Shown one piece after another: positions 14,393 through 36,178 of a stretch of 64,000 nucleotides of DNA. Numbering within the stretch: position 1 is the stretch's first letter; each line of letters opens with the position of its first letter. The notes beneath the pieces are model-generated. The model did not search any database. It worked only from the letters and a program-made list of their open reading frames with translations, and was not told the origin of the DNA. Location of the stretch: contig NZ_CP066362.1 of NCBI RefSeq assembly GCF_030323865.1, positions 1,674,001 to 1,738,000 on the forward strand, in the 5' to 3' direction. The DNA is from Pseudarthrobacter defluvii. Its GTDB lineage: Bacteria; Actinomycetota; Actinomycetes; Actinomycetales; Micrococcaceae. The translations under genes and the position numbers were made by a program.

Positions 14393-14746
14393 TTACTGCC
14401 AGATGGTGGCGATGGCGATGTTGAGCAGGGCCAGGCCGCCGACGCCGTGGGCGAGTCCGGTGGAAACGGGCTGCCCGTTCTTGACCTTGCGCGAGCCGAT
14501 GATGGCCAGGACGGCAACCACGATGGCGATGACGAACTTGATGCCCAGCTTGGCGTAGTTGGGGTCCTTGTCCGGCAGGAACGGAAGGATGCCCATCATG
14601 GCGATGCCGGTGAGCAGTTGCAGGAAGGCGCCGTCACGCTGGCGCGGGTGCACGGTGGGGGTCCGCATCGTGGCGATCCAGTAGCCCACGATCATGGCCG
14701 CGCCCACCACATGCAGGAAAACCAGGATGTTGAAGAGAATAGTCAT
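14393..14746 (-). CDS. Small four-helix membrane protein, possibly haem-binding
   Basis: A 117-residue protein with four transmembrane helices at about 4-25, 39-58, 66-84 and 96-115 and a short basic loop (29-38). Histidines lie in helix 1 (His12 in FLHVVGAAM) and at the start of helix 4 (His100 in LAHGVGG), an arrangement seen in small membrane b-type haem proteins. Haem binding is an inference, and I do not recognise a named family. Its promoter carries a near-perfect copy of the palindrome found at the cyd operon (14768-14784). A TAAGCT box six bases before the ATG suggests a leaderless mRNA. Confidence 0.72.
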   Translation of the reverse strand: MTILFNILVFLHVVGAAMIVGYWIATMRTPTVHPRQRDGAFLQLLTGIAMMGILPFLPDKDPNYAKLGIKFVIAIVVAVLAIIGSRKVKNGQPVSTGLAHGVGGLALLNIAIATIWQ

Positions 14747-14767: not shown

Positions 14768-14784
14768 TTCTACCGTCTGTAGCA
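14768..14784. promoter_or_regulatory. BlaI-type operator, remote copy
   Basis: TTCTAC-N5-GTAGCA matches 11 of the 12 arm bases of the three palindromes at the blaI-cydA divergent region, with a perfect CTAC-N5-GTAG core. It covers the presumed -35 of the four-helix membrane protein gene, so repression by the BlaI-like protein encoded at 29404-29787 is plausible. Confidence 0.55.
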
Positions 14785-14895: not shown

Positions 14896-16668
14896 CTAGA
14901 GTCCCAGGTCCGCTTCGAACGCGCCTTCTTCGAGGCGTGCCTTCAGGGTCTGGAGGAACCGGCCTGCGTCCGCGCCGTCCACCAGGCGGTGGTCGTACGT
15001 CAGGGACAGGTACATCATGGAGCGGATGGCGATCGAGTCGTCACCGTTTTCGTCAGCAACCACCACGGGGCGCTTGACGATGGCGCCGGTGCCCAGGATG
15101 CCAACCTGCGGCTGGTTGATGATCGGGGTGTCGAACAGCGCGCCCACCGAACCGATGTTGGTGATGCTGAACGTGCCGCCGGACAGTTCGTCCGGACCGA
15201 TCTTGCCGTCGCGGGTGCGGGAAGCAACGTCGGCGATCTTGCCGGCCAGGCCGGCAAGGTTCAGGTTGCCGGCGTCCGCGATGACCGGAACAAGGAGGCC
15301 CTTGTCCGTGTCGACAGCGATCGCCAGGTGCTCGGCGTTGTGGTAGGTGATCTCCTGCTTTTCCTCGTCGTAGGCAGCGTTGAGCTTGGGGTGCTGCTTG
15401 AGGGCCTCGGCAACGGCCTTGGCGATGAAGGGCAGGAAGGTCAGCTTGGTGCCATTCTGGGCCTGGAACGAGTTCTTGGCACGGGCACGCAGCTTGGCGA
15501 CCTTGGTCATGTCCACTTCGTGGACCTGGGTCAGCTGGGTGGAGATTTCCAGCGACTCGCGCATGCGCCGGGCGATGACCTGGCGGATGCGGGGAGCCTT
15601 TTGGGTGGTGCCGCGCAGCGACGAGGCTGCTGCGCCGGATGGAGCCGGGGCGGAGGCGGCAGGGGCTGCTGCCGGAGCCGCAGCGGGTGCGGCCTTGGCC
15701 TCGGCGGCGGCGATGACATCCTGCTTGCGGATGCGGCCACCAACACCGGTGCCGGAGAGGCTGGAGATGTCCACGCCGTGCTGGTTGGCCAGCTTGCGGA
15801 CCAGGGGAGTGACGTAGCCGGACTCGGATCCGCCGGCCGGTGCTGCTTCCTGGGCTGCCGGAGCAGCAGGAGCCTGGGCGGCGGGAGCCGGGGCAGCCTG
15901 GGGTGCAGCCTGCTCGGGGGCCTGCTGGGCAGGAACGGCCTGGGCGGGAGCGGTCTGCGCAGGAGCGGACTCTGCCGGAGCGGGCTTGGGGGCTTCCTGC
16001 TGGGGAGCGGCGGGTGCAGCCTGCGGAGCTGCGGCAGCGGGAGCGCCCGAGCCAATGACGGCGAGTACGGAGCCAACCTCGGCGGTCTCGTCCTCGTTGA
16101 CGCGGATTTCCTGCAGGGTGCCGGCGACGGGAGACGGGATCTCGGTGTCTACCTTGTCGGTGGAAACTTCCAGCAACGGCTCGTCCACCTCGACGGAGTC
16201 GCCGACGGCCTTGAGCCAGCGGGTGACGGTGCCTTCGGTGACGCTTTCACCAAGTGCGGGGAGGGTGACCTCGTGGCTTTCGCCGCCGCCGGCAGCGGGT
16301 GCTTCTGCGGCAGGTGCCTCCTGCGCGGGAGCTGCTTCAGCCGGTGCTTCCTGTGCGGGAGCGGCTGCAGGTGCCTCTTCGGCGGGAGCAGCAGCGGGGG
16401 CTTCTTCTGCGGGGGCAGAACCGCCGCCGGAGCCGTCACCGATGCGCACCAGCGGTGCACCTACCTCGGCGGTCTCATCTTCAGCGACCAGGATTTCTTC
16501 AATCACGCCAGCTACAGGAGAGGGGATTTCAGTGTCTACTTTGTCGGTGGAGACTTCGAGCAGCGGCTCGTCCACCTCTACCCGGTCACCTACCTGCTTG
16601 AGCCAGCGGGTGACGGTTCCTTCGGTGACACTCTCACCGAGGGCGGGCAAGTTAACGGATTCAGACAT
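14896..16668 (-). CDS. sucB: 2-oxoacid dehydrogenase E2, dihydrolipoamide succinyl/acetyltransferase (actinobacterial SucB type)
   Basis: A 590-residue E2 with domains in order: lipoyl 1 (1-76, Lys43 in [10 protein letters not shown]), an Ala/Pro/Glu linker, lipoyl 2 (133-208, Lys172 in the same motif), a second Ala/Pro/Gln linker, the E3/E1-binding domain (about 283-320) and the acyltransferase core (about 355-590) with the catalytic DHRLVDG (His560). It carries acyl groups in pyruvate and 2-oxoglutarate oxidation. In actinobacteria this protein (DlaT in M. tuberculosis) can serve the pyruvate dehydrogenase despite the sucB name. ATG 16668 is preceded by AGGAG; the frame stays open 30 codons upstream. 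lpdA is directly upstream, across 114 bp and a hairpin. Confidence 0.94.
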
Positions 16669-16729
16669 GTCGTCCCCGTTCTCCTTATTGATCTTTAGTG
16701 CGAATGGTTGCTGCCTTGTTGGAAGCCTA

Positions 16730-16758
16730 GTGCACCCGGTCTGCGCGACCGGGTGCAC
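16730..16758 (-). other. Intercistronic hairpin between lpdA and sucB
   Basis: A perfect 12-bp stem (16730-16741 with 16747-16758) encloses a 5-base loop, with no U run after it. It may set relative lpdA and sucB expression by processing, mRNA protection or partial termination. Confidence 0.5.
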
Positions 16759-28404: not shown

Positions 28405-29397
28405 TCAGCCGAGCAGTCCGGGAACCACCAGGAGCGCGGTGGGCAGCGCGAGCAGCAGGACGCTGCCTGCCATAACGGCGCTGCGGAGGGCGGAAGGAAG
28501 CGGAGGCTGGGGCGTCAGGAGCCGGCTGACACGGGAAGCTGCGGTGCGGACCGCATCCGAACCGGATCCGCCCGACGCCGCCTCAAGCCCGGACAGGGCC
28601 AGCGTGGGCGAGGATGGCCGGACGCTTCCGGCGCCGGCCTCCGTGGCGGAACCGCTGGCCACGATGGCGATGGCCTTGATGAGGGTGGCTTTGCTCTCGG
28701 TCCGCAGGGCGACATCATCGGCCAGCATCTCGATGAGGGAGTTCACGGATTCCTGGGCAAGCCGGGTGGTGGGCAGCCACGGAAGGGCCTGCCGCCACGC
28801 GGCGAAGGCCCAGAGCAGGAGGTGGTGCCGCTGGCTCAGGTGGGCGTTCTCGTGAATCAGCACGGCCCGAAGTTCTGCCGGTTCGAGCGCCGCCATCAGG
28901 CCGTCCGACAGGACTGTCACGGAACGCGCGCCGCCGGGAAGGCAGTACGCCACGGGGGAGTCGTGGCTGATGACCAGGGTCCCGGCGTCCTGGCCGGAGG
29001 GCGACGCCAGCAGGGCAAGCATTTCGCGGTGCCGCCGCCGCTGCCGCTGGATCTTGTAGTACGTCAGCAGCAGGGTGAACACCAGGTGGACGGTGAGCAG
29101 GGCGGCAGTGGACAGGGCAAAGATGTGCCAGAACCCCAGGGCTGTAGTGGGGGCGTTGAAAAGCACCATGCCGGCAAGGCCGCGGAGGCCTGCGATGAGG
29201 TTGTCGCCGATGGGCTCCAGGCCGTAGACCAACATGGCGCCGATCATGGACAGCCCGCCTGCTAGCGCGATCGCCTGCCACAGCAGCATGGCCGTGAACG
29301 GCGACCTGGCCGGCCATTGCGCCCGTGACAGGAGGATCGGCACCGGCCACGCCAGGACTATCGCAAGGACCGCCAGCAGGTATGAGGCCCAGAACAT
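28405..29397 (-). CDS. M56 family metallopeptidase (BlaR1-like, no sensor domain)
   Basis: A 330-residue membrane zinc protease. Three N-terminal helices (about 4-23, 36-57 and 92-113) lead to a cytoplasmic protease domain with HENAH (182-186) followed by LSQRHHLLLW, and the C-terminus has one last helix (about 305-328). This is the transmembrane-protease half of BlaR1/MecR1, but the protein ends where the extracellular penicillin-binding domain would begin, so beta-lactam sensing is not expected. It lies six bases after the BlaI-type gene, which it probably inactivates by cleavage on receiving a signal. The neighbouring divergent operon encodes cytochrome bd. Confidence in family is high, in the signal none. 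Confidence 0.86.
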   Translation of the reverse strand: MFWASYLLAVLAIVLAWPVPILLSRAQWPARSPFTAMLLWQAIALAGGLSMIGAMLVYGLEPIGDNLIAGLRGLAGMVLFNAPTTALGFWHIFALSTAALLTVHLVFTLLLTYYKIQRQRRRHREMLALLASPSGQDAGTLVISHDSPVAYCLPGGARSVTVLSDGLMAALEPAELRAVLIHENAHLSQRHHLLLWAFAAWRQALPWLPTTRLAQESVNSLIEMLADDVALRTESKATLIKAIAIVASGSATEAGAGSVRPSSPTLALSGLEAASGGSGSDAVRTAASRVSRLLTPQPPLPSALRSAVMAGSVLLLALPTALLVVPGLLG

Positions 29398-29403
29398 GGT
29401 GTG

Positions 29404-29787
29404 TTAGACGCGGCCCAGAAGTTTGCGCAGCGTCTCGGCTTCACCTTCGGACACCGACCCGATGAACCGGGCCAGGACGGCCTCGCGGTCCGGGGCGGAT
29501 CCAAGGACCTCGTGCATGAGTTCCGCGGTGTGGTCTGCACGGCTGGACACAGCCTGGTAGCGGTGGGGGCGGGTGCCGCGTTCGCGCTCAACCAGGCCCT
29601 TCTTCTCCAGGCGGGAAAGTACGGTGAGCACCGTGGTGACGGCCAGTTCCTTGCCTTCGTGGCCAGAGCCGCCCTGCGCCGCCGACGTGCGCGCCAACTG
29701 ATCCCTCAGGGTATTGGCCGTAGCCGCTTCCTGGCCCGCCCAGAGCAGGTCCATCACTGCCCGTTCCAGTTCACCAAGACTCGCCAT
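29404..29787 (-). CDS. BlaI/MecI/CopY family transcriptional repressor
   Basis: A 127-residue winged-helix repressor. The DNA-binding domain occupies residues 1-75 (LGELERAVMDLLWAGQEAATA, then TTVLTVLSRLEKKGLVERER), and the C-terminal helices (about 80-127) form the dimerisation domain. Family members bind TACA/TGTA-type palindromes and are released when cleaved by the partner protease, here the downstream M56 gene. Three perfect TTCTAC-N5-GTAGAA palindromes lie in the 261-bp region shared with cydA, one at its own promoter and two upstream of cydA. The likely targets are therefore itself, cydABDC and the membrane protein at 14393-14746. Confidence 0.9.
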   Translation of the reverse strand: MASLGELERAVMDLLWAGQEAATANTLRDQLARTSAAQGGSGHEGKELAVTTVLTVLSRLEKKGLVERERGTRPHRYQAVSSRADHTAELMHEVLGSAPDREAVLARFIGSVSEGEAETLRKLLGRV

Positions 29788-29866
29788 GTCACTTTTCCTT
29801 TATTTCCCCGCACCGTGCGCCGTAGGGCACCCGGTGACGTCACGCGGTTGTTCAACTACACAACTA

Positions 29867-29872
29867 AATTTA
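29867..29872 (-). promoter_or_regulatory. Candidate -10 hexamer TAAATT of the blaI-M56 operon
   Basis: TAAATT on the minus strand lies 80 bases before the blaI start. The matching -35 position (29890-29895) falls at the edge of the palindrome at 29891-29907, as expected for autorepression. Confidence 0.4.
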
Positions 29873-29890
29873 CCCCGAAAACTCCCAACC

Positions 29891-29907
29891 TTCTACATGG
29901 GGTAGAA
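29891..29907. promoter_or_regulatory. BlaI-type operator 1
   Basis: A perfect dyad TTCTAC-N5-GTAGAA in the divergent blaI-cydA region, next to the presumed blaI -35 element. Confidence 0.7.
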
Positions 29908-29978
29908 CATCTGGCGCGCCGCGCCCCGACGCGCGATCCTAGGGGAGGGCGGGAAGTTTCCGTCCGTCGTCGAGGATG

Positions 29979-29995
29979 TTCTACACTTTGTAGAA
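29979..29995. promoter_or_regulatory. BlaI-type operator 2
   Basis: A perfect dyad TTCTAC-N5-GTAGAA whose centre also contains TACA-N3-TGTA, the classical BlaI/MecI/CopY core. It lies 24 bp upstream of operator 3, in phase on the helix. Confidence 0.75.
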
Positions 29996-30002
29996 GTTGG
30001 AG

Positions 30003-30019
30003 TTCTACGAAGCGTAGAA
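30003..30019. promoter_or_regulatory. BlaI-type operator 3
   Basis: A perfect dyad TTCTAC-N5-GTAGAA ending 29 bases before the cydA ATG, over the expected cydA promoter. TAACAG at 30032-30037 is a possible -10. Confidence 0.75.
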
Positions 30020-30048
30020 AACTGCAGTTGCTAACAGTAGGGACCGCC

Positions 30049-31653
30049 ATGGACGCCTTGGAAATCGCACGCTGGCAATTCGGCATCACCACCGTCTACC
30101 ACTTCATGATGGTGCCGCTGACCATCGGCCTGGGGCTGGTGGTGGCCGTCATCCAGACAGCCTGGTACCGCACCGGGAAGCCCGAATACCTGCGCATGAC
30201 CAAGTTCTGGGGAAAGCTGTTCCTCATCAACTTCATCATGGGCGTGGCCACGGGCATCGTCCAGGAGTTCCAGTTCGGCATGGCCTGGAGCGAGTACAGC
30301 CGCTTCGTGGGGGACGTCTTCGGTGCGCCCCTGGCCCTTGAGGCGCTCCTGGCCTTCTTCGTCGAGTCCACCTTCCTGGGCCTGTGGATCTTCGGCTGGA
30401 AGCAGCTCAAGCCGGCCATCCACCTCGCCTGCCTCTGGGTGGCGGTCATCGGATCAGCGCTCTCCGCCTACTTCATCATCGTGGCCAACAGCTGGATGCA
30501 GCACCCGGTGGGGGTGGAGATGATTAACGGCCGGCCCGTCATGACCGACGCCTGGGCTGTCTTCACCAACAACACCGCGCTCGTGGCCGTCCCGCACACC
30601 CTGTTCGGCGCCCTCGCCGTTGCCGGCGGCTTCCTCCTGGGCATCGCCTGGTACCACCTGTGGCGGCGGCGGCAGGACGGCGTGGACACCGTGGGCGCCG
30701 ACGGCCGGGTGGTGCCGGGTGAAGACATCCGCATCCCCGGCCGTGACCGGGCCGACCACAACGTATGGATCCGGTCCCTGCGCATCGGCGCCGTGGTGGC
30801 CATGATCTCCTTTGCCGGCACCGCCGTCACAGGCGACCTCCAGGGCAAGCTGATGTTCCAGCAGCAGCCTATGAAGATGGCCGCCGCGGAGGCGGCGTGC
30901 CACGACGGCACCGGCTTCTCCGTCCTGAGCGTCGGCAACGTGGGCTCGAAGAACTGCGACGACGTCGTGGCCGTGATCGAGGTCCCCGGCATCCTCTCCT
31001 TCCTGGCCAAGGGCGATTTCACCACTGAGGTTAAGGGCGTGAACAGCCTGCTCCCCGAGTACAAGGAGAAGTACGGCACCAACCTCCCCGACAATCCGAT
31101 CTACGGGGACCGCGCCGGCCAGGAGATCCAGTACGTGCCCGTCATGGAGGTCACCTACTGGGGCTTTCGGATGATGATCGGCTTCGGCGGCCTTGCCGCC
31201 CTGGCTGCACTGGTGGCCCTCTGGCTCACCCGCAAGGGGACGGTGCCTGAGTCACGGTGGCTGATGCGGCTGGCAGTCTTCGGCATCCTGGCTCCCTTCG
31301 GCGCCAACGCAGCCGGCTGGATCTTTACCGAAATGGGTCGCCAGCCGTTCGTCGTGGCGCCTAACCCGGATCCCAGCGGCATCGACCAGGTCTTCATGTT
31401 TACCGCCGCCGCCGTATCCCCGGGTGTCTCCGCAGGGGAACTCATTGCCTCGCTGGTGGCGCTGACCGCCGTGTACGCCGTCCTGCTGGTGGTGGAAGTG
31501 AAACTCCTGGTCAAGTACATCCGCGGCGGCGTGGTTTCCGCGATGCCGGAACTCGCGCACGCACCTGCGGACGAGAACGAGGACCAGACGCCCAACCCCG
31601 GCGGCAACGGTGAATCCAAACCCGCCGACGACGTCCTGGCCTTCGCCTACTAG
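30049..31653 (+). CDS. cydA: Cytochrome bd ubiquinol/menaquinol oxidase subunit I
   Basis: A 534-residue haem-bearing subunit of the high-affinity terminal oxidase in the plasma membrane. It has the expected polytopic layout and ligand residues: His18 (YHFMMVP), Glu98 and Glu106 (APLALEALLAFFVES), His183 (VPHTLFGALA) and the GRQPF segment near residue 430. ATG 30049 starts the homologous sequence MDALEIARWQFG; the frame is open further upstream across the operators but without homology. It heads cydA-cydB-cydDC. It is probably repressed through the palindromes at 29979-30019. Confidence 0.96.
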   Translation: MDALEIARWQFGITTVYHFMMVPLTIGLGLVVAVIQTAWYRTGKPEYLRMTKFWGKLFLINFIMGVATGIVQEFQFGMAWSEYSRFVGDVFGAPLALEALLAFFVESTFLGLWIFGWKQLKPAIHLACLWVAVIGSALSAYFIIVANSWMQHPVGVEMINGRPVMTDAWAVFTNNTALVAVPHTLFGALAVAGGFLLGIAWYHLWRRRQDGVDTVGADGRVVPGEDIRIPGRDRADHNVWIRSLRIGAVVAMISFAGTAVTGDLQGKLMFQQQPMKMAAAEAACHDGTGFSVLSVGNVGSKNCDDVVAVIEVPGILSFLAKGDFTTEVKGVNSLLPEYKEKYGTNLPDNPIYGDRAGQEIQYVPVMEVTYWGFRMMIGFGGLAALAALVALWLTRKGTVPESRWLMRLAVFGILAPFGANAAGWIFTEMGRQPFVVAPNPDPSGIDQVFMFTAAAVSPGVSAGELIASLVALTAVYAVLLVVEVKLLVKYIRGGVVSAMPELAHAPADENEDQTPNPGGNGESKPADDVLAFAY

Positions 31654-31668
31654 CAGAGGAAACAAACA

Positions 31669-32718
31669 ATGGAACTGCTTCCCACCATATGGTTCATCGC
31701 CATCGCGGTGCTGTGGACCGGCTACCTCTTCCTGGAGGGCTTCGACCTGGGGGTCGGGATGCTGATGAAGCTCTTCGCCCGTAACAATACGGAGCGCCGC
31801 GTACTGCTGAACACCATCGGACCCGTCTGGGACGGCAACGAGGTTTGGCTGCTGACCGCCGGCGGCGCCACCTTCGCCGCCTTCCCCCTCTGGTACGCGT
31901 CGCTGTTCTCCGCGCTCTACCTGCCGCTGCTGGTGGTCCTGCTGGCGCTGATCTTCCGTGCGGTCGCGTTCGAGTACCGGGGCAAGGTGGACACTGACAG
32001 CTGGCGGAACCGGTGGGACTGGGCCATCGCGCTGGGATCCTTCTTCGCGGCTTTCGGCGTGGGCGCCGCCCTGGCCCTCACCACCACCGGCCTTCCGCTG
32101 AACGCCAACGGCGACCGGGAAGGCGGCCCCATGGCCTGGTTCAGCGGTTACGCACTGCTGGGCGGACTCGCCGTCGTGGGTTTCTCACTCCTCCACGCCC
32201 TGGCCTTCCTGGCCCTCAAGACCGACGGCGAGGTCCGGCACCGTGCCCGCCAGTGGGTCGTGCGGCTCCTGCCGGTCCTGCTCCTGCCCATCGCGGCATG
32301 GGCCCTTGCCATCCAGTTCCTGGACGGCAAGCCGTGGACCTGGGCCGCCGTCGTGCTGGCCGTTGGCGCTGCCGCCACCGCCTGGTGGCTGGCCCGGAAC
32401 GGTTCCGAAGGCAGGGCCTTCCTGGCCCTTGGTGCCTTCCTGGTCCTGGGCACCGCATCCATCTTCGGGGCCGTGTTCCCGGTGGTGCTGCCTTCCACGC
32501 TGGACGGCGCCTTTGACCTCACCATCTCCAACGCCTCATCCTCGGACTACACACTGGGCCTGATGAGCATCGTGGCGGCCTTTGGGCTTCCCCTGGTGAT
32601 TGCCTACCAGGCCTGGACCTACTGGGTGTTCCGCCGCCGCGTCAGTGCCGCCCACATTCCCGAAGCGCACAGCTTCCTCCCTGCCATCGCCGCCAAGGCC
32701 TTCACCACAAAGGGCTGA
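31669..32718 (+). CDS. cydB: Cytochrome bd oxidase subunit II
   Basis: A 349-residue membrane subunit that pairs with CydA. The N-terminal signature WFIAIAVLWTGYLFLEGFDLG, the GPVWDGNEVWLL loop and the FEYRGK segment are diagnostic. Roughly eight to nine hydrophobic helices are visible. AGAGGAA lies seven bases before the ATG, and only 15 bp separate it from cydA. The next gene starts one base after its stop, so cydB and cydDC are translated together. Confidence 0.96.
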   Translation: MELLPTIWFIAIAVLWTGYLFLEGFDLGVGMLMKLFARNNTERRVLLNTIGPVWDGNEVWLLTAGGATFAAFPLWYASLFSALYLPLLVVLLALIFRAVAFEYRGKVDTDSWRNRWDWAIALGSFFAAFGVGAALALTTTGLPLNANGDREGGPMAWFSGYALLGGLAVVGFSLLHALAFLALKTDGEVRHRARQWVVRLLPVLLLPIAAWALAIQFLDGKPWTWAAVVLAVGAAATAWWLARNGSEGRAFLALGAFLVLGTASIFGAVFPVVLPSTLDGAFDLTISNASSSDYTLGLMSIVAAFGLPLVIAYQAWTYWVFRRRVSAAHIPEAHSFLPAIAAKAFTTKG

Positions 32719-32719
32719 C

Positions 32720-35700
32720 GTGCGGCCGACCTTCCCCACGGGGCCGGCCACCCGGTCCGCAATTTACTGGCTGGGACTGCTGGCCGCGCTCAAGGCCCTG
32801 TCCCTGGTCCTCATCGGCCAGGCGGTGGCCTCCGTCCTTGCGGGGCTCGCCGCCGGGAACCCTGCCTGGTCGGAGCAGCTCACCGCCGGCCTGGCCGGCG
32901 TCGTCCTGCGCTCCCTGACCGTCTGGGGGCAGGCTGTCGCCGCCCGCCGCGCGGCCCTCGGGGTCAAGGAGGAGCTCCGCGCGGAGCTGCTGGAGCGGGC
33001 CCTGCGCGGCGGGGTGCGGGGGACCGGCCCCGGCGACGGTGGCCTGGCCGTCCTGGCCACCCGCGGCCTGGATGCGCTGGACAGCTACTACACGCAGTTC
33101 CTGCCTGCGCTGGTCAACTGCGCTGCCGTTCCGCTGCTGCTGGGGGCCCGGATCCTCTTTGCGGACTGGGTCAGCGCGCTGGTCATTGTGCTGACAGTCC
33201 CGTTGATCCCGGTGTTCATGGTGCTGATCGGCCGGTACACCGAGGACAGCGTGCGGCAGGCCCAGGCCTCGCTGGCACGGTTGTCTGGTCACATGCTGGA
33301 GCTCGCCAAGGGCCTGCCGGTCCTGGTGGGGCTGGGCAGGGCCACGGCCCAGCGCAAGGCTCTGGAGGAGATCTCCGAGGAATACCGCTCGCGCACCATG
33401 GGCACCCTCCGGACCGCGTTCCTGTCCGCCCTGGCCCTGGAACTCATCGCCACCATCTCGGTGGCCGTGGTGGCGGTCTTCATTGGCGTCCGGCTGGTCC
33501 ATGGCGGCATGCCGCTGGAGGCGGGCCTGCTGGCACTCCTCCTGGCCCCGGACTGCTACCTTCCGCTGCGGGAACTGGGCACCGCCCACCACGCCAGCGA
33601 CGACGGCCGGGTGGCGCTCGCGGAAACCGCAGCCGTGACCGGTGCGCCGGAGCCTACGCCCCTGCCGGCTGCCAAGGCCGGCAGGCCGGGCGCTCCACTG
33701 GAGGTCACCGCACTCACGGTGACCTATCCCGGACGGGCCGGAGCCGCCGTCGGCCCCCTCACCTTCACCGCACCACAGGACAGGATCACCGCCCTGGACG
33801 GTCCCAGCGGCGCCGGCAAGAGCACTGTCCTTGGCGTACTGGCAGGCACCATCGGCAACGCCGGCGGAACGGCCAGGACAGGAACCAGCGCAGGAACCAG
33901 CATCACCGGGTCCATCAGGGGGCTGGACCGCCGTGCCGTGGCCTGGGTACCCCAGCATCCCGTCATGGTGGCCAACACCGTCCTGGACGAGGTGCTGCTG
34001 TACCTCTCGCCGGATTCCACCCATGGCCCGGACCGCTTCGCCGCCGAAGACGCAGCCCGCCGTTGCCTGGAGCGCGCAGGAGCCGGGCACCTGGCCGGCA
34101 AGCACCCGGCGGAGCTGAGCCCGGGCGAGCTGCGGCGCGTGGCCCTGGCCCGCGGCCTGGCCAGGATCGACGCCGGTGCCACCCTCCTGCTCCTGGACGA
34201 GCCCACGGCGCACCTGGACGACGCCTCGGCCGTCATCGTCGAGAACGCCATCCGGCGGCTCCGCGGCCAGGCCACCGTAATCCTGGTGGCCCACAACCGG
34301 CGCACCCGGCAGTTGGCAGACCTCTTGGTGCCGGTGCGGCCCGCGGGCACGGCAACGCCGACGCCGGATGCGGGCGTTGCTGTGTTCCCGCCGGGCCGCG
34401 CCGACACCACGGCGAGCGCAAGGTCCATGGACACGCCCGTCACAGAGGCTGGTGTCGACGACGGAACGGAAGCCAGGCATCCCAGGGTCGTCGGCCCCGC
34501 TCCCAGTGCCGCTCCCGGCGCCGGCCGCCTCCTGGCCGCCCTCCTCGCACCGGTCCGTGGGAAGTTCGCGGCAGCGGCCTTTGTCGGCACGCTGGCGGCC
34601 GTCTTCGCCGTCGCGCTTTCCGGCCTGTCCGGCTGGCTCATTATCCGCGCCAGCGAGCAGCCGCCTATCCTCTACCTCCTGACGGCCATTGTCGGCGTCC
34701 GGTTCTTCGGCATCGGCCGCGCGGTGTTCCGCTATTGGGAGCGCCTGCTGCTGCATGATGCCGTATTCGCCGCCTTGACCCGGCTCCGCGGCAGGCTGTG
34801 GGAGTCCCTGAGCCGCCGGGCGCTGTCACTGCGCCGGCTCCTGCAGGGCGGCAATGTGCTGGGCACGGTCATCGACGACGTCGACACCGTCCGGGACCTC
34901 CTGCCGCGCGTGGTCCTGCCGCCTGTCACGGCGCTTGCGGTGTCCGTCCTGGCCGTGGCCGCCACCGGAGCCTTGGTGCCGGCCGCCCTTCCCGCAGTGC
35001 TTGGGGCAGCCGTCAGCGGCCTGCTGCTGGCGCCCGCGGCCGCCGTGTGGGGTGACCGGAAGTCCGCCGCTGCCGAGCAGGCCCTGCGCTCCGGCGTCCT
35101 GCGCCGCGTCACGGCCGCCCTGGATGCGCGGGCCGAACTGCATGCCAACGGTGTGGCGCCCCGCGTCCTTGACGCGCTGCTGGCTGAGGACCGGGATGCC
35201 ACCCGCGCCTCCCAGCGGTCCGCCTGGGCCGACGGGCTGGGGCACGCCGTCGCCACCGCCGCCTGCGGTGCCGCTGCCCTGGCTGCGGCCTTGCTGGCAG
35301 GGCCGGAGGTCCTCGCAGCCCGCGTTGCCCCGGCTACCGCGGCCGTGGTGGTCCTGCTGCTGCTGGCGCTGGTGGAGCCTTACGCTGCGATGACGACGGC
35401 GGTGCGCCAGTTCCCGGCGCTGCGTGCGGTTATGCGTCGCGTGGGGGAGTCGGGGGCCCTTGCCGGAGGCGGCGAGGCGACTGACGGGCTGCAGTCCGTT
35501 CCTGCCAGGGCCGGCGGTGCGCCAGGCGTCGAGTTGGTGGACCTGGCCGCGGCCTGGCCGGGAGGCTCACCGGTCTTCTCGGGCGTGGACGCGTCGGCAG
35601 CGCCGGGGCGCTGGCTGGCGGTCACCGGGCCGTCAGGGTCCGGAAAATCGACGCTGCTCTCGGTGCTGCTGGGCTTCCTGCCGCCCGCTGCAGGCCAGGT

Positions 35701-36178
35701 GCGGGTCACCGGCCGGGCGGCGTGGTGCCCGCAGGAAGCACACCTGTTCGATTCCACCATCCGCGGAAACCTGCTGCTGGGCAGGCCGTCCACCGACGGT
35801 GCCGCCGCGGCACGTGACGAAGAGCTGGAAGCCGTCCTGGCCGCCGTCGGACTTTCCGGGCTGGTACGCCGGCTGCCGGCGGGGCTGGACACCCGAATCG
35901 GGCCCGGCGGTGCGTTCCTCAGCGGCGGCGAGCGCCAGCGCCTGGCCGTGGCGCGGACCCTGCTGACCGGCGCGGAGGTGGTCCTGCTGGATGAGCCCAC
36001 CACCCACCTTGATGCCGAATCCGCGGCCGCCATGCTCGCGGACCTGCGTTCGGGCCTGCGGGACCGCACGGTGGTGCTGGTGACCCACAATGCGGCTGAT
36101 ATCCAGGCCGGGGATGGACGCCTTGACCTGTCAGCATTCTCCGGACAGGCGCGCGCATCCCTGGCGCGTTCCCGCTGA
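32720..36178 (+). CDS. cydDC: Fused thiol-reductant ABC exporter CydD-CydC
   Basis: An 1152-residue fusion of two ABC half-transporters. The CydD half has a membrane domain (about 10-300), Walker A GPSGAGKST (361-369), an odd signature LSPGELRR (from 466) and Walker B LLLLDEPTAHLD. A Pro/Thr/Ala linker (about 535-600) leads to the CydC half with its own helices, Walker A GPSGSGKST (from 970), a normal signature LSGGERQR (from 1067) and Walker B VVLLDEPTTHLD. The family exports glutathione or cysteine, or handles haem, needed for cytochrome bd assembly. GTG 32720 lies one base after the cydB stop; the frame is open into cydB. Fused CydDC is usual in actinobacteria. Confidence 0.93.
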   Translation: MRPTFPTGPATRSAIYWLGLLAALKALSLVLIGQAVASVLAGLAAGNPAWSEQLTAGLAGVVLRSLTVWGQAVAARRAALGVKEELRAELLERALRGGVRGTGPGDGGLAVLATRGLDALDSYYTQFLPALVNCAAVPLLLGARILFADWVSALVIVLTVPLIPVFMVLIGRYTEDSVRQAQASLARLSGHMLELAKGLPVLVGLGRATAQRKALEEISEEYRSRTMGTLRTAFLSALALELIATISVAVVAVFIGVRLVHGGMPLEAGLLALLLAPDCYLPLRELGTAHHASDDGRVALAETAAVTGAPEPTPLPAAKAGRPGAPLEVTALTVTYPGRAGAAVGPLTFTAPQDRITALDGPSGAGKSTVLGVLAGTIGNAGGTARTGTSAGTSITGSIRGLDRRAVAWVPQHPVMVANTVLDEVLLYLSPDSTHGPDRFAAEDAARRCLERAGAGHLAGKHPAELSPGELRRVALARGLARIDAGATLLLLDEPTAHLDDASAVIVENAIRRLRGQATVILVAHNRRTRQLADLLVPVRPAGTATPTPDAGVAVFPPGRADTTASARSMDTPVTEAGVDDGTEARHPRVVGPAPSAAPGAGRLLAALLAPVRGKFAAAAFVGTLAAVFAVALSGLSGWLIIRASEQPPILYLLTAIVGVRFFGIGRAVFRYWERLLLHDAVFAALTRLRGRLWESLSRRALSLRRLLQGGNVLGTVIDDVDTVRDLLPRVVLPPVTALAVSVLAVAATGALVPAALPAVLGAAVSGLLLAPAAAVWGDRKSAAAEQALRSGVLRRVTAALDARAELHANGVAPRVLDALLAEDRDATRASQRSAWADGLGHAVATAACGAAALAAALLAGPEVLAARVAPATAAVVVLLLLALVEPYAAMTTAVRQFPALRAVMRRVGESGALAGGGEATDGLQSVPARAGGAPGVELVDLAAAWPGGSPVFSGVDASAAPGRWLAVTGPSGSGKSTLLSVLLGFLPPAAGQVRVTGRAAWCPQEAHLFDSTIRGNLLLGRPSTDGAAAARDEELEAVLAAVGLSGLVRRLPAGLDTRIGPGGAFLSGGERQRLAVARTLLTGAEVVLLDEPTTHLDAESAAAMLADLRSGLRDRTVVLVTHNAADIQAGDGRLDLSAFSGQARASLARSR

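Follow-up and report, generated by a model that had tools for sequence, protein, structure and literature searches.

Likely BlaI sites before cytochrome bd and respiratory-chain genes of Pseudarthrobacter defluvii suggest one proteolysis-linked switch of respiration

The control by which actinobacteria change from the efficient bcc-aa3 branch to cytochrome bd and back is, to our knowledge, an open question, and one of medical weight. The window, by which we mean the whole 64-kb stretch of Pseudarthrobacter defluvii DNA that was analysed, holds a cytochrome bd operon divergent from a gene for a BlaI-type repressor, which is followed in turn by the gene of a membrane peptidase. This arrangement raises the question of whether the repressor and its neighbour govern the cytochrome bd genes, through which sites they would do so, and whether such control reaches further genes. 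The features of the locus are as follows.

28405..29397, minus strand: membrane metallopeptidase (M48/M56-like), 330 aa, proposed BlaI antirepressor (from Pfam, HExxH and hydrophobicity)
29404..29787, minus strand: blaI, BlaI-type winged-helix repressor, 127 aa, no cysteine (Pfam PF03965, Penicillinase_R)
29867..29872, minus strand: putative blaI -10 hexamer TAAATT, 18 nt from the operator 1 half GTAGAA
29891..29907, no strand assigned: operator 1, TTCTAC-N5-GTAGAA, TTCTACATGGGGTAGAA, exact match; its blaI-proximal half takes the -35 position of the putative blaI promoter
29979..29995, no strand assigned: operator 2, TTCTACACTTTGTAGAA, exact match, conserved in the alignment
29982..29987, plus strand: putative cydA -10 hexamer TACACT, inside operator 2
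30003..30019, no strand assigned: operator 3, TTCTACGAAGCGTAGAA, exact match, its start 24 bp from that of operator 2
30049..31653, plus strand: cydA, cytochrome bd subunit I (PF01654, E 8e-154)
31669..32718, plus strand: cydB, cytochrome bd subunit II (PF02322 and TIGR00203)
32720..36178, plus strand: cydD-cydC fused in a single 1152-aa frame, thiol reductant exporter (TIGR02857 and TIGR02868 above their cut-offs)

Dyads between blaI and cydA

The three perfect TTCTAC-N5-GTAGAA dyads that the preliminary description had placed between blaI and cydA are all exact, and the spacing that it gave for operators 2 and 3 is correct. The 261-bp intergenic region holds these three copies compared with none in 2000 dinucleotide shuffles, and the 64-kb window likewise three compared with none in 100 shuffles; counting any perfect 6-5-6 dyad, no shuffle of the 261-bp region contained more than one copy. 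The three dyads at the cyd locus are far beyond chance.

Searched with a BlaI alignment, named genomes gave 507 matches, of which the best 80 were kept, so that the sample consists of close relatives, all of them Micrococcaceae by title (Pseudarthrobacter, Arthrobacter, Paenarthrobacter and one further member). Among these best 80 of 507 matches, cydA diverges from blaI and the peptidase gene, located by tblastn, lies downstream in 80/80 loci, while three perfect dyads are present in 79 and two in the remaining one; the comparison of neighbourhoods that had been suggested as a check thus found the dyads kept. Elsewhere in those 80 loci, most of them about 12 kb long, no perfect dyad occurs. 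An alignment of 81 intergenic regions (the 80 and that of the window) showed the 36 operator-arm columns to be 99.97% identical to the window, compared with 66% for the 15 central dyad columns and 53% for the other 210 columns.

The same 81 sequences revealed two conserved hexamers, TAAATT before blaI with five of six bases at 99% or above and TACACT before cydA with all six at that level. Both have the form TANNNT, which we take to be that of an actinobacterial -10 element. A scan for the sigma-70 consensus found no promoter, so the putative blaI and cydA promoters are placed by conservation. The geometry of operators and putative promoters is, as read from the sequence, that expected of a steric repressor that is also an autorepressor. 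The conserved hexamers agree with the earlier placement of operator 1 at the presumed blaI promoter and of operators 2 and 3 at cydA, and operator 1 with its -10-like hexamer would constitute the dyad at the repressor's own promoter that marks BlaI/MecI systems.

Repressor, peptidase and cytochrome bd genes

Pfam and TIGR matches bear out the assignment of the BlaI-like gene and of the cytochrome bd operon. BlaI scores 74.9 bits against PF03965 (cut-off 22.6), which places it in the BlaI/MecI domain family, and its nearest solved structure by sequence is 2g9w (E 3.4e-15), which we take to be Rv1846c, the BlaI of M. tuberculosis. The protein contains no cysteine, and neither do its counterparts in 80/80 named loci; the CxC motif of CopY copper sensors is missing from its carboxy-terminus, and the NCBIfam CopY model yields 25 bits with a cut-off of 121.95. 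CopY-type metal sensing by this BlaI was rejected for want of any cysteine. BlaI Phe108 is invariant in 17/17 aligned actinobacterial BlaI sequences and aligns with the scissile Phe102 of S. aureus BlaI (N101-F102), so that the Phe at the P1' position of the family's cleavage site is retained. PADLOC gave no match.

The peptidase carries its HExxH motif as HENAH at residues 182–186 and has hydrophobic stretches near residues 5–23, 42–60, 92–110 and 307–325. H182, E183, H186, E223 and D227 are invariant in 30 aligned rows, comprising the HExxH residues together with the downstream acidic ligand, and quick sequence patterns over the 80 named loci recovered the Phe motif of BlaI in 78/80 and the HExxH frame in 78/80. 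The preliminary description had called this gene an M56 protease. The metalloprotease residues are indeed kept, but PF05569 (M56) scores 21.6 bits, below its cut-off of 31, whereas PF01435 (M48) reaches 38.4 bits with a cut-off of 20.3, and the protein is therefore best named an M48/M56-like membrane metallopeptidase. At E 1e-3, 25/30 homologues match M56 and 30/30 match M48. Compared as a profile with solved structures, the peptidase matches HtpX, Ste24p and an M48 peptidase, not BlaR1; among 120 listed relatives, those that are named are mostly called 'M56 family metallopeptidase' or 'Zn-dependent protease with chaperone function'. Pfam found neither a penicillin-binding nor a carboxy-terminal beta-lactam sensor domain in its 330 residues.

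Sites at other genes and in other genomes

In the whole genome, the perfect TTCTAC-N5-GTAGAA pattern occurs eight times compared with two for the pattern read backwards. The dyads had been tied to the blaI–cydA locus, which holds for three copies, but five more perfect copies stand before other genes. A further seven sites have one mismatch. Gene names are from Pfam where cited and otherwise from our own reading of the sequences.

Perfect site before hmp (flavohemoglobin); an Rrf2-type regulator gene adjoins
Perfect site before the gene of a PNPOx-like flavoprotein (flavin-oxidase-like)
Perfect site before hemQ (chlorite dismutase family)
Perfect site before a histidine-phosphatase gene heading ResA/ResB/CcsA-like cytochrome c maturation genes; a YceI gene is divergent
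Perfect site before the gene of a two-helix membrane protein, function not recognised from sequence
One-mismatch site before qcrC, heading qcrCAB
One-mismatch site before the gene preceding atpB, heading the atp operon
One-mismatch site before an ABC transporter-permease-ctaA (heme A synthase) operon; a SufR-like gene is divergent
One-mismatch site before a second resA, near ctaG, contig C2
One-mismatch site before a small membrane protein gene adjoining an mshB-like gene
One-mismatch site before sucC, about 200 bp away
14768..14784 of the window, no strand assigned: one-mismatch operator TTCTACCGTCTGTAGCA, upstream of the gene at 14393-14746
14393..14746 of the window, minus strand: 117-aa hydrophobic protein, candidate regulon member; no Pfam match, operator upstream

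Sites with zero or one mismatch number 15 in the genome, as do those of the backward pattern, so that number alone is uninformative about the one-mismatch sites, and a claim of enrichment by number was rejected. These sites were retained because their position and conservation separate them from the control. None of the 12 sites outside the cyd locus (5 perfect, 7 one-mismatch) lies inside a gene compared with 12/15 of the control sites (Fisher 4e-5, with genic and intergenic calls made by our own GC-frame heuristic rather than a trained gene finder), and each of the 12 is at most 205 bp before a gene start. The atp site shows the same single mismatch in 25/25 genus genomes, where the backward pattern at these promoters always has at least three mismatches. 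At qcrC, 24/29 genomes have a site with zero or one mismatch, always 70 bp ahead of the gene, and in 5/29 the site is degraded or absent, a count that leaves out G029 (match broken into frames) and G026 (no match). Homologues of the 117-aa protein in G078, G117 and G139 have a perfect operator at the same place. In the window, the gene of this protein and its operator neighbour a sucB-like gene (14896-16758, minus strand). Pfam gave no match for the gene before atpB, the 117-aa protein or the small protein of locus L350.

A survey of the genus covered ten genomes with all sites listed, from which 55 sites were fetched with the triple cyd cluster omitted for seven genomes; all 55 lie at the same few targets. 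Sites precede hemQ, the histidine phosphatase/YceI pair and the small membrane protein in 10/10 genomes each, hmp in 9/10 and the PNPOx gene in 6/10, with one additional ResA/ResB site, and the cyd/blaI sites are present in all three genomes for which they were fetched. For another eight genomes, of which six are from the same family and two from family f6, homology to a reference set gave a target for 45 of 60 sites and none for 15; part of that reference set had been drawn from the same loci. The assigned targets include COX2, SURF1, a UbiA-family gene read as ctaB, SDH cytochrome, CtaG, CopC and CopD, and universal stress protein genes account for two of the 45. At least seven targets have a genus-conserved site as judged from sequence, namely cyd, hmp, hemQ, the histidine phosphatase/Res operon, the small membrane protein, atp and qcr. 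Control confined to cyd, as originally proposed, is thus too narrow, although cyd itself stays among the targets.

Several neighbourhoods deserve separate mention. The two-helix membrane protein (L077:5324-5686, minus strand, 120 aa), with a site upstream in 10/10 genus genomes examined, has 540 homologues; the 120 listed among them carry no Pfam domain and are named 'hypothetical' or 'uncharacterized', save for one SecY label. That it is an oxidase accessory protein is our guess. At L349, a long cluster of heme genes (names by reading of the sequences) is divided by the hemQ operator: uroporphyrinogen decarboxylase- and hemY-like genes lie to one side of it, hemQ and later heme genes to the other. 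At L111 and L112, from two large genomes of another family (G291 and G304), paired TTCTAC dyads stand before a PepSY membrane protein gene, identified by Pfam for L111 and by reading for L112, and a metal-ATPase-like gene adjoins in G291.

Each of the genus genomes counted (61/61) contains 3–9 perfect sites, and at least one is found in 108/120 genomes of the family and 37/198 of the order. From the family we took 48 genomes, 20 of them chosen for having 0–1 sites, and defined a BlaI orthologue by at least 50% identity, whereby 4 of the 16 genomes counted as lacking one have a weaker match (36–37%). On this basis at least two sites occur in 28/32 genomes with the orthologue compared with 0/16 without it (Fisher 2e-9, shared ancestry ignored); the other four BlaI-bearing genomes have only 0–1 perfect sites. 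BlaI lies within 450 bp of cydA in 29/32 BlaI-bearing family genomes, and in G064, where blaI and cydA are on different contigs, the dyads are kept at both. Across the class, a BlaI match was found in 50/98 genomes. Among the 30 class-level loci fetched, two of them from this genus, the peptidase gene lies within about 1.5 kb of blaI in 29 and cydA in 17; one of these 17 has cydA downstream instead of divergent, and four have a cydA match of just 28–32% identity. A dyad of the form T[AT]C[TG]AC-N5-GT[AC]G[AT]A lies upstream of blaI at 20/30 loci compared with 0.0 expected from shuffles and was not seen at 10/30, and since this pattern was written after viewing the loci, its fit is partly by construction. 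At 5/5 loci of family f22, read as mycobacterial because their BlaI closely resembles 2g9w, TACGAC-N5-GTAGTA precedes blaI.

These distributions bear on what binds the dyads. They could be the sites of another regulator, with blaI only one of its targets; among genomes that bear cydA, however, at least two sites occur in 26/30 with BlaI and in 0/11 without (G092, with only a 28-residue cydA match, counted as lacking cydA). The recurrence of operator variants upstream of blaI across the class and the agreement of the 6-N5-6 geometry with that reported for the C. thermocellum BlaI in the portion of PMC8457756 consulted likewise oppose such a regulator, which we regard as very improbable. The sequence comparisons support a reading of the dyads as operators of this BlaI: they lie where autoregulation would place them, are conserved almost perfectly and are missing where BlaI is missing. 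BlaI might also act as a rheostat on both terminal-oxidase branches and ATP synthase, with cyd just its tightest target, which extends a repressor–protease switch rather than excluding it. G071 and G084 have no cydA match yet keep BlaI with 15 and 5 perfect sites, respectively, and the operators of G071 (L080, L083, L086, L089, L092, L137-L146) include those at COX2, SURF1, SDH cytochrome, a UbiA-family gene read as ctaB and the copper genes copC/copD; the G071 regulon may have grown after the loss of cytochrome bd. The position of BlaI beside cydA in most BlaI-bearing family genomes and the fact that cyd has the most operators in this genome pull the other way, leaving the chances of this extension slightly short of even.

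A proposed switch and its known relatives

Taken together, the likely BlaI sites before the backup oxygen-using enzyme and before respiratory-chain genes suggest one proteolysis-linked switch of respiration. In the reading that we prefer, to which we assign a probability of roughly 70%, BlaI keeps a respiratory regulon repressed until the M48/M56-like protease encoded beside it removes the repressor. BlaI dimers would bind TTCTAC-N5-GTAGAA, one of them on the blaI promoter, giving autorepression, and two over the promoter and start region of cydA, which would silence cytochrome bd. The repressor would also sit at the promoters of hemQ (heme synthesis), ResA/ResB (cytochrome c maturation) and hmp (flavohemoglobin), and through weaker sites at qcrCAB, the atp operon and the ABC-ctaA operon. 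Upon disturbed respiration or cytochrome assembly, the membrane metalloprotease would cleave BlaI at the conserved Phe108 and so release the regulon. The operators and the regulon are, at the level of sequence, well supported, whereas we infer DNA binding by BlaI, its cleavage and the signal. As no beta-lactam sensor domain was found, the signal of the peptidase is probably a different one; impaired electron transport or cytochrome assembly is a guess suggested by the targets. It would be physiologically awkward for one regulator to repress both the atp operon and cyd through operators of equal strength; cyd has more numerous and stricter operators, whereas atp and qcr have single imperfect ones, a difference that suggests graded control.

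The preferred switch must be weighed against other ways in which BlaI could leave its operators. BlaI could bind the dyads and repress as above but be released by a ligand or by a redox or heme signal acting on itself, with the peptidase serving elsewhere. The peptidase has no recognisable sensor domain and its profile matches favour general M48 proteases, and related CopY repressors are freed by bound metal, according to the part of PMC5772342 seen; however, a cysteine-free BlaI speaks against a CopY- or thiol-type sensor, the scissile Phe is conserved, and the peptidase adjoins blaI throughout the named and in nearly all class-level loci, even without a nearby cydA, so that we consider direct release unlikely. 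Less probable still appears a beta-lactam or envelope stress system as in staphylococci with the respiratory targets secondary. The family names point that way, as do partial accounts of M. tuberculosis, where BlaI is described as a blaC repressor and blaR–blaI expression rose under amoxicillin-clavulanate (PMC12565901, PMC5473688), but none of the 15 sites with zero or one mismatch lies at a recognisable beta-lactamase or penicillin-binding protein gene (site neighbours judged by Pfam or eye), and the small peptidase lacks a detectable penicillin-binding domain. Going beyond the preferred switch, we tentatively entertain, at less than even odds, that the BlaI–BlaR-like pair of Actinomycetes ancestrally controlled the respiratory chain through a protease-cut repressor and graded operators, and that mycobacterial beta-lactamase control came late. 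If so, the protease would monitor electron transport or cytochrome assembly and, through one repressor, set many pathways together: the bd oxidase, the bcc complex, heme A and heme b synthesis, cytochrome c maturation, NO detoxification and ATP synthase.

In M. tuberculosis, BlaI reportedly binds the cytochrome bd and ATP synthase promoters and has a BlaR partner without a beta-lactam sensor domain (PMC5473688, citing Sala 2009; seen in part). The view of the preliminary description that such a control logic was not described for cyd operons is therefore too strong, and BlaI on cyd is not new. The excerpted text of PMC12565901 adds that BlaI binds the promoter of Rv1303, which shares an operon with ATP synthase genes, and that over-expression in M. 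smegmatis lowered the transcript of the Rv1303 homologue. The M. tuberculosis pair (Rv1846c/Rv1845c) thus resembles ours as the nearest solved relative and in placing BlaI beside a BlaR homologue without the beta-lactam sensor, and the mycobacterial regulon is mirrored here by the perfect cyd sites and the genus-wide atp site. In contrast, the beta-lactamase blaC is a further target of repression by BlaI there, no cydA was found within about 1.5 kb of blaI at the five f22 loci fetched, and the parts consulted of PMC5473688 and PMC12565901 do not name hmp, hemQ, cytochrome c maturation or qcr as targets. In the open-licence literature, which covers few subscription journals, we found no description of the BlaI–peptidase–cydA locus or the TTCTAC-N5-GTAGAA operator, nor of BlaI at hmp, hemQ, qcr, ctaA or cytochrome c maturation, and the portions seen of PMC8765290 and PMC10581053 hold nothing on this BlaI; within that literature the breadth of the regulon and the conserved locus appear undescribed. 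With one repressor, a readable operator, a linked protease and a conserved regulon, the system would offer a direct soil-bacterium model of respiratory switching, and it predicts regulon membership for two membrane proteins without recognised function.

CopY belongs to the same repressor superfamily, and copper genes are among the targets in other genera; it is defined by the CxC motif (PMC5772342, in the part seen), whereas our BlaI has neither this motif nor any cysteine and falls far below the CopY cut-off. For C. thermocellum BlaI_0696, the part of PMC8457756 consulted gives a DAP-seq motif whose 6-bp inverted repeats are separated by five nucleotides and whose sites are paired, with single repeats used in EMSA. 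This geometry, the paired operators and the autoregulation resemble those of the present locus; the regulon there is small and consists mainly of sensory genes, not respiratory ones. The Staphylococcus systems BlaI–BlaR1 and MecI–MecR1 share with it the winged-helix repressor, the membrane metalloprotease partner and the position of the scissile Phe, and likewise have dyad operators and divergent targets. In S. aureus, BlaR1 cuts BlaI between Asn101 and Phe102, as stated in the section of PMC9834060 seen. The peptidase here differs in its length of 330 aa and in having no penicillin-binding domain that we could find, and the candidate targets are respiratory, which would recast a family named after penicillin resistance as one of respiratory regulators.
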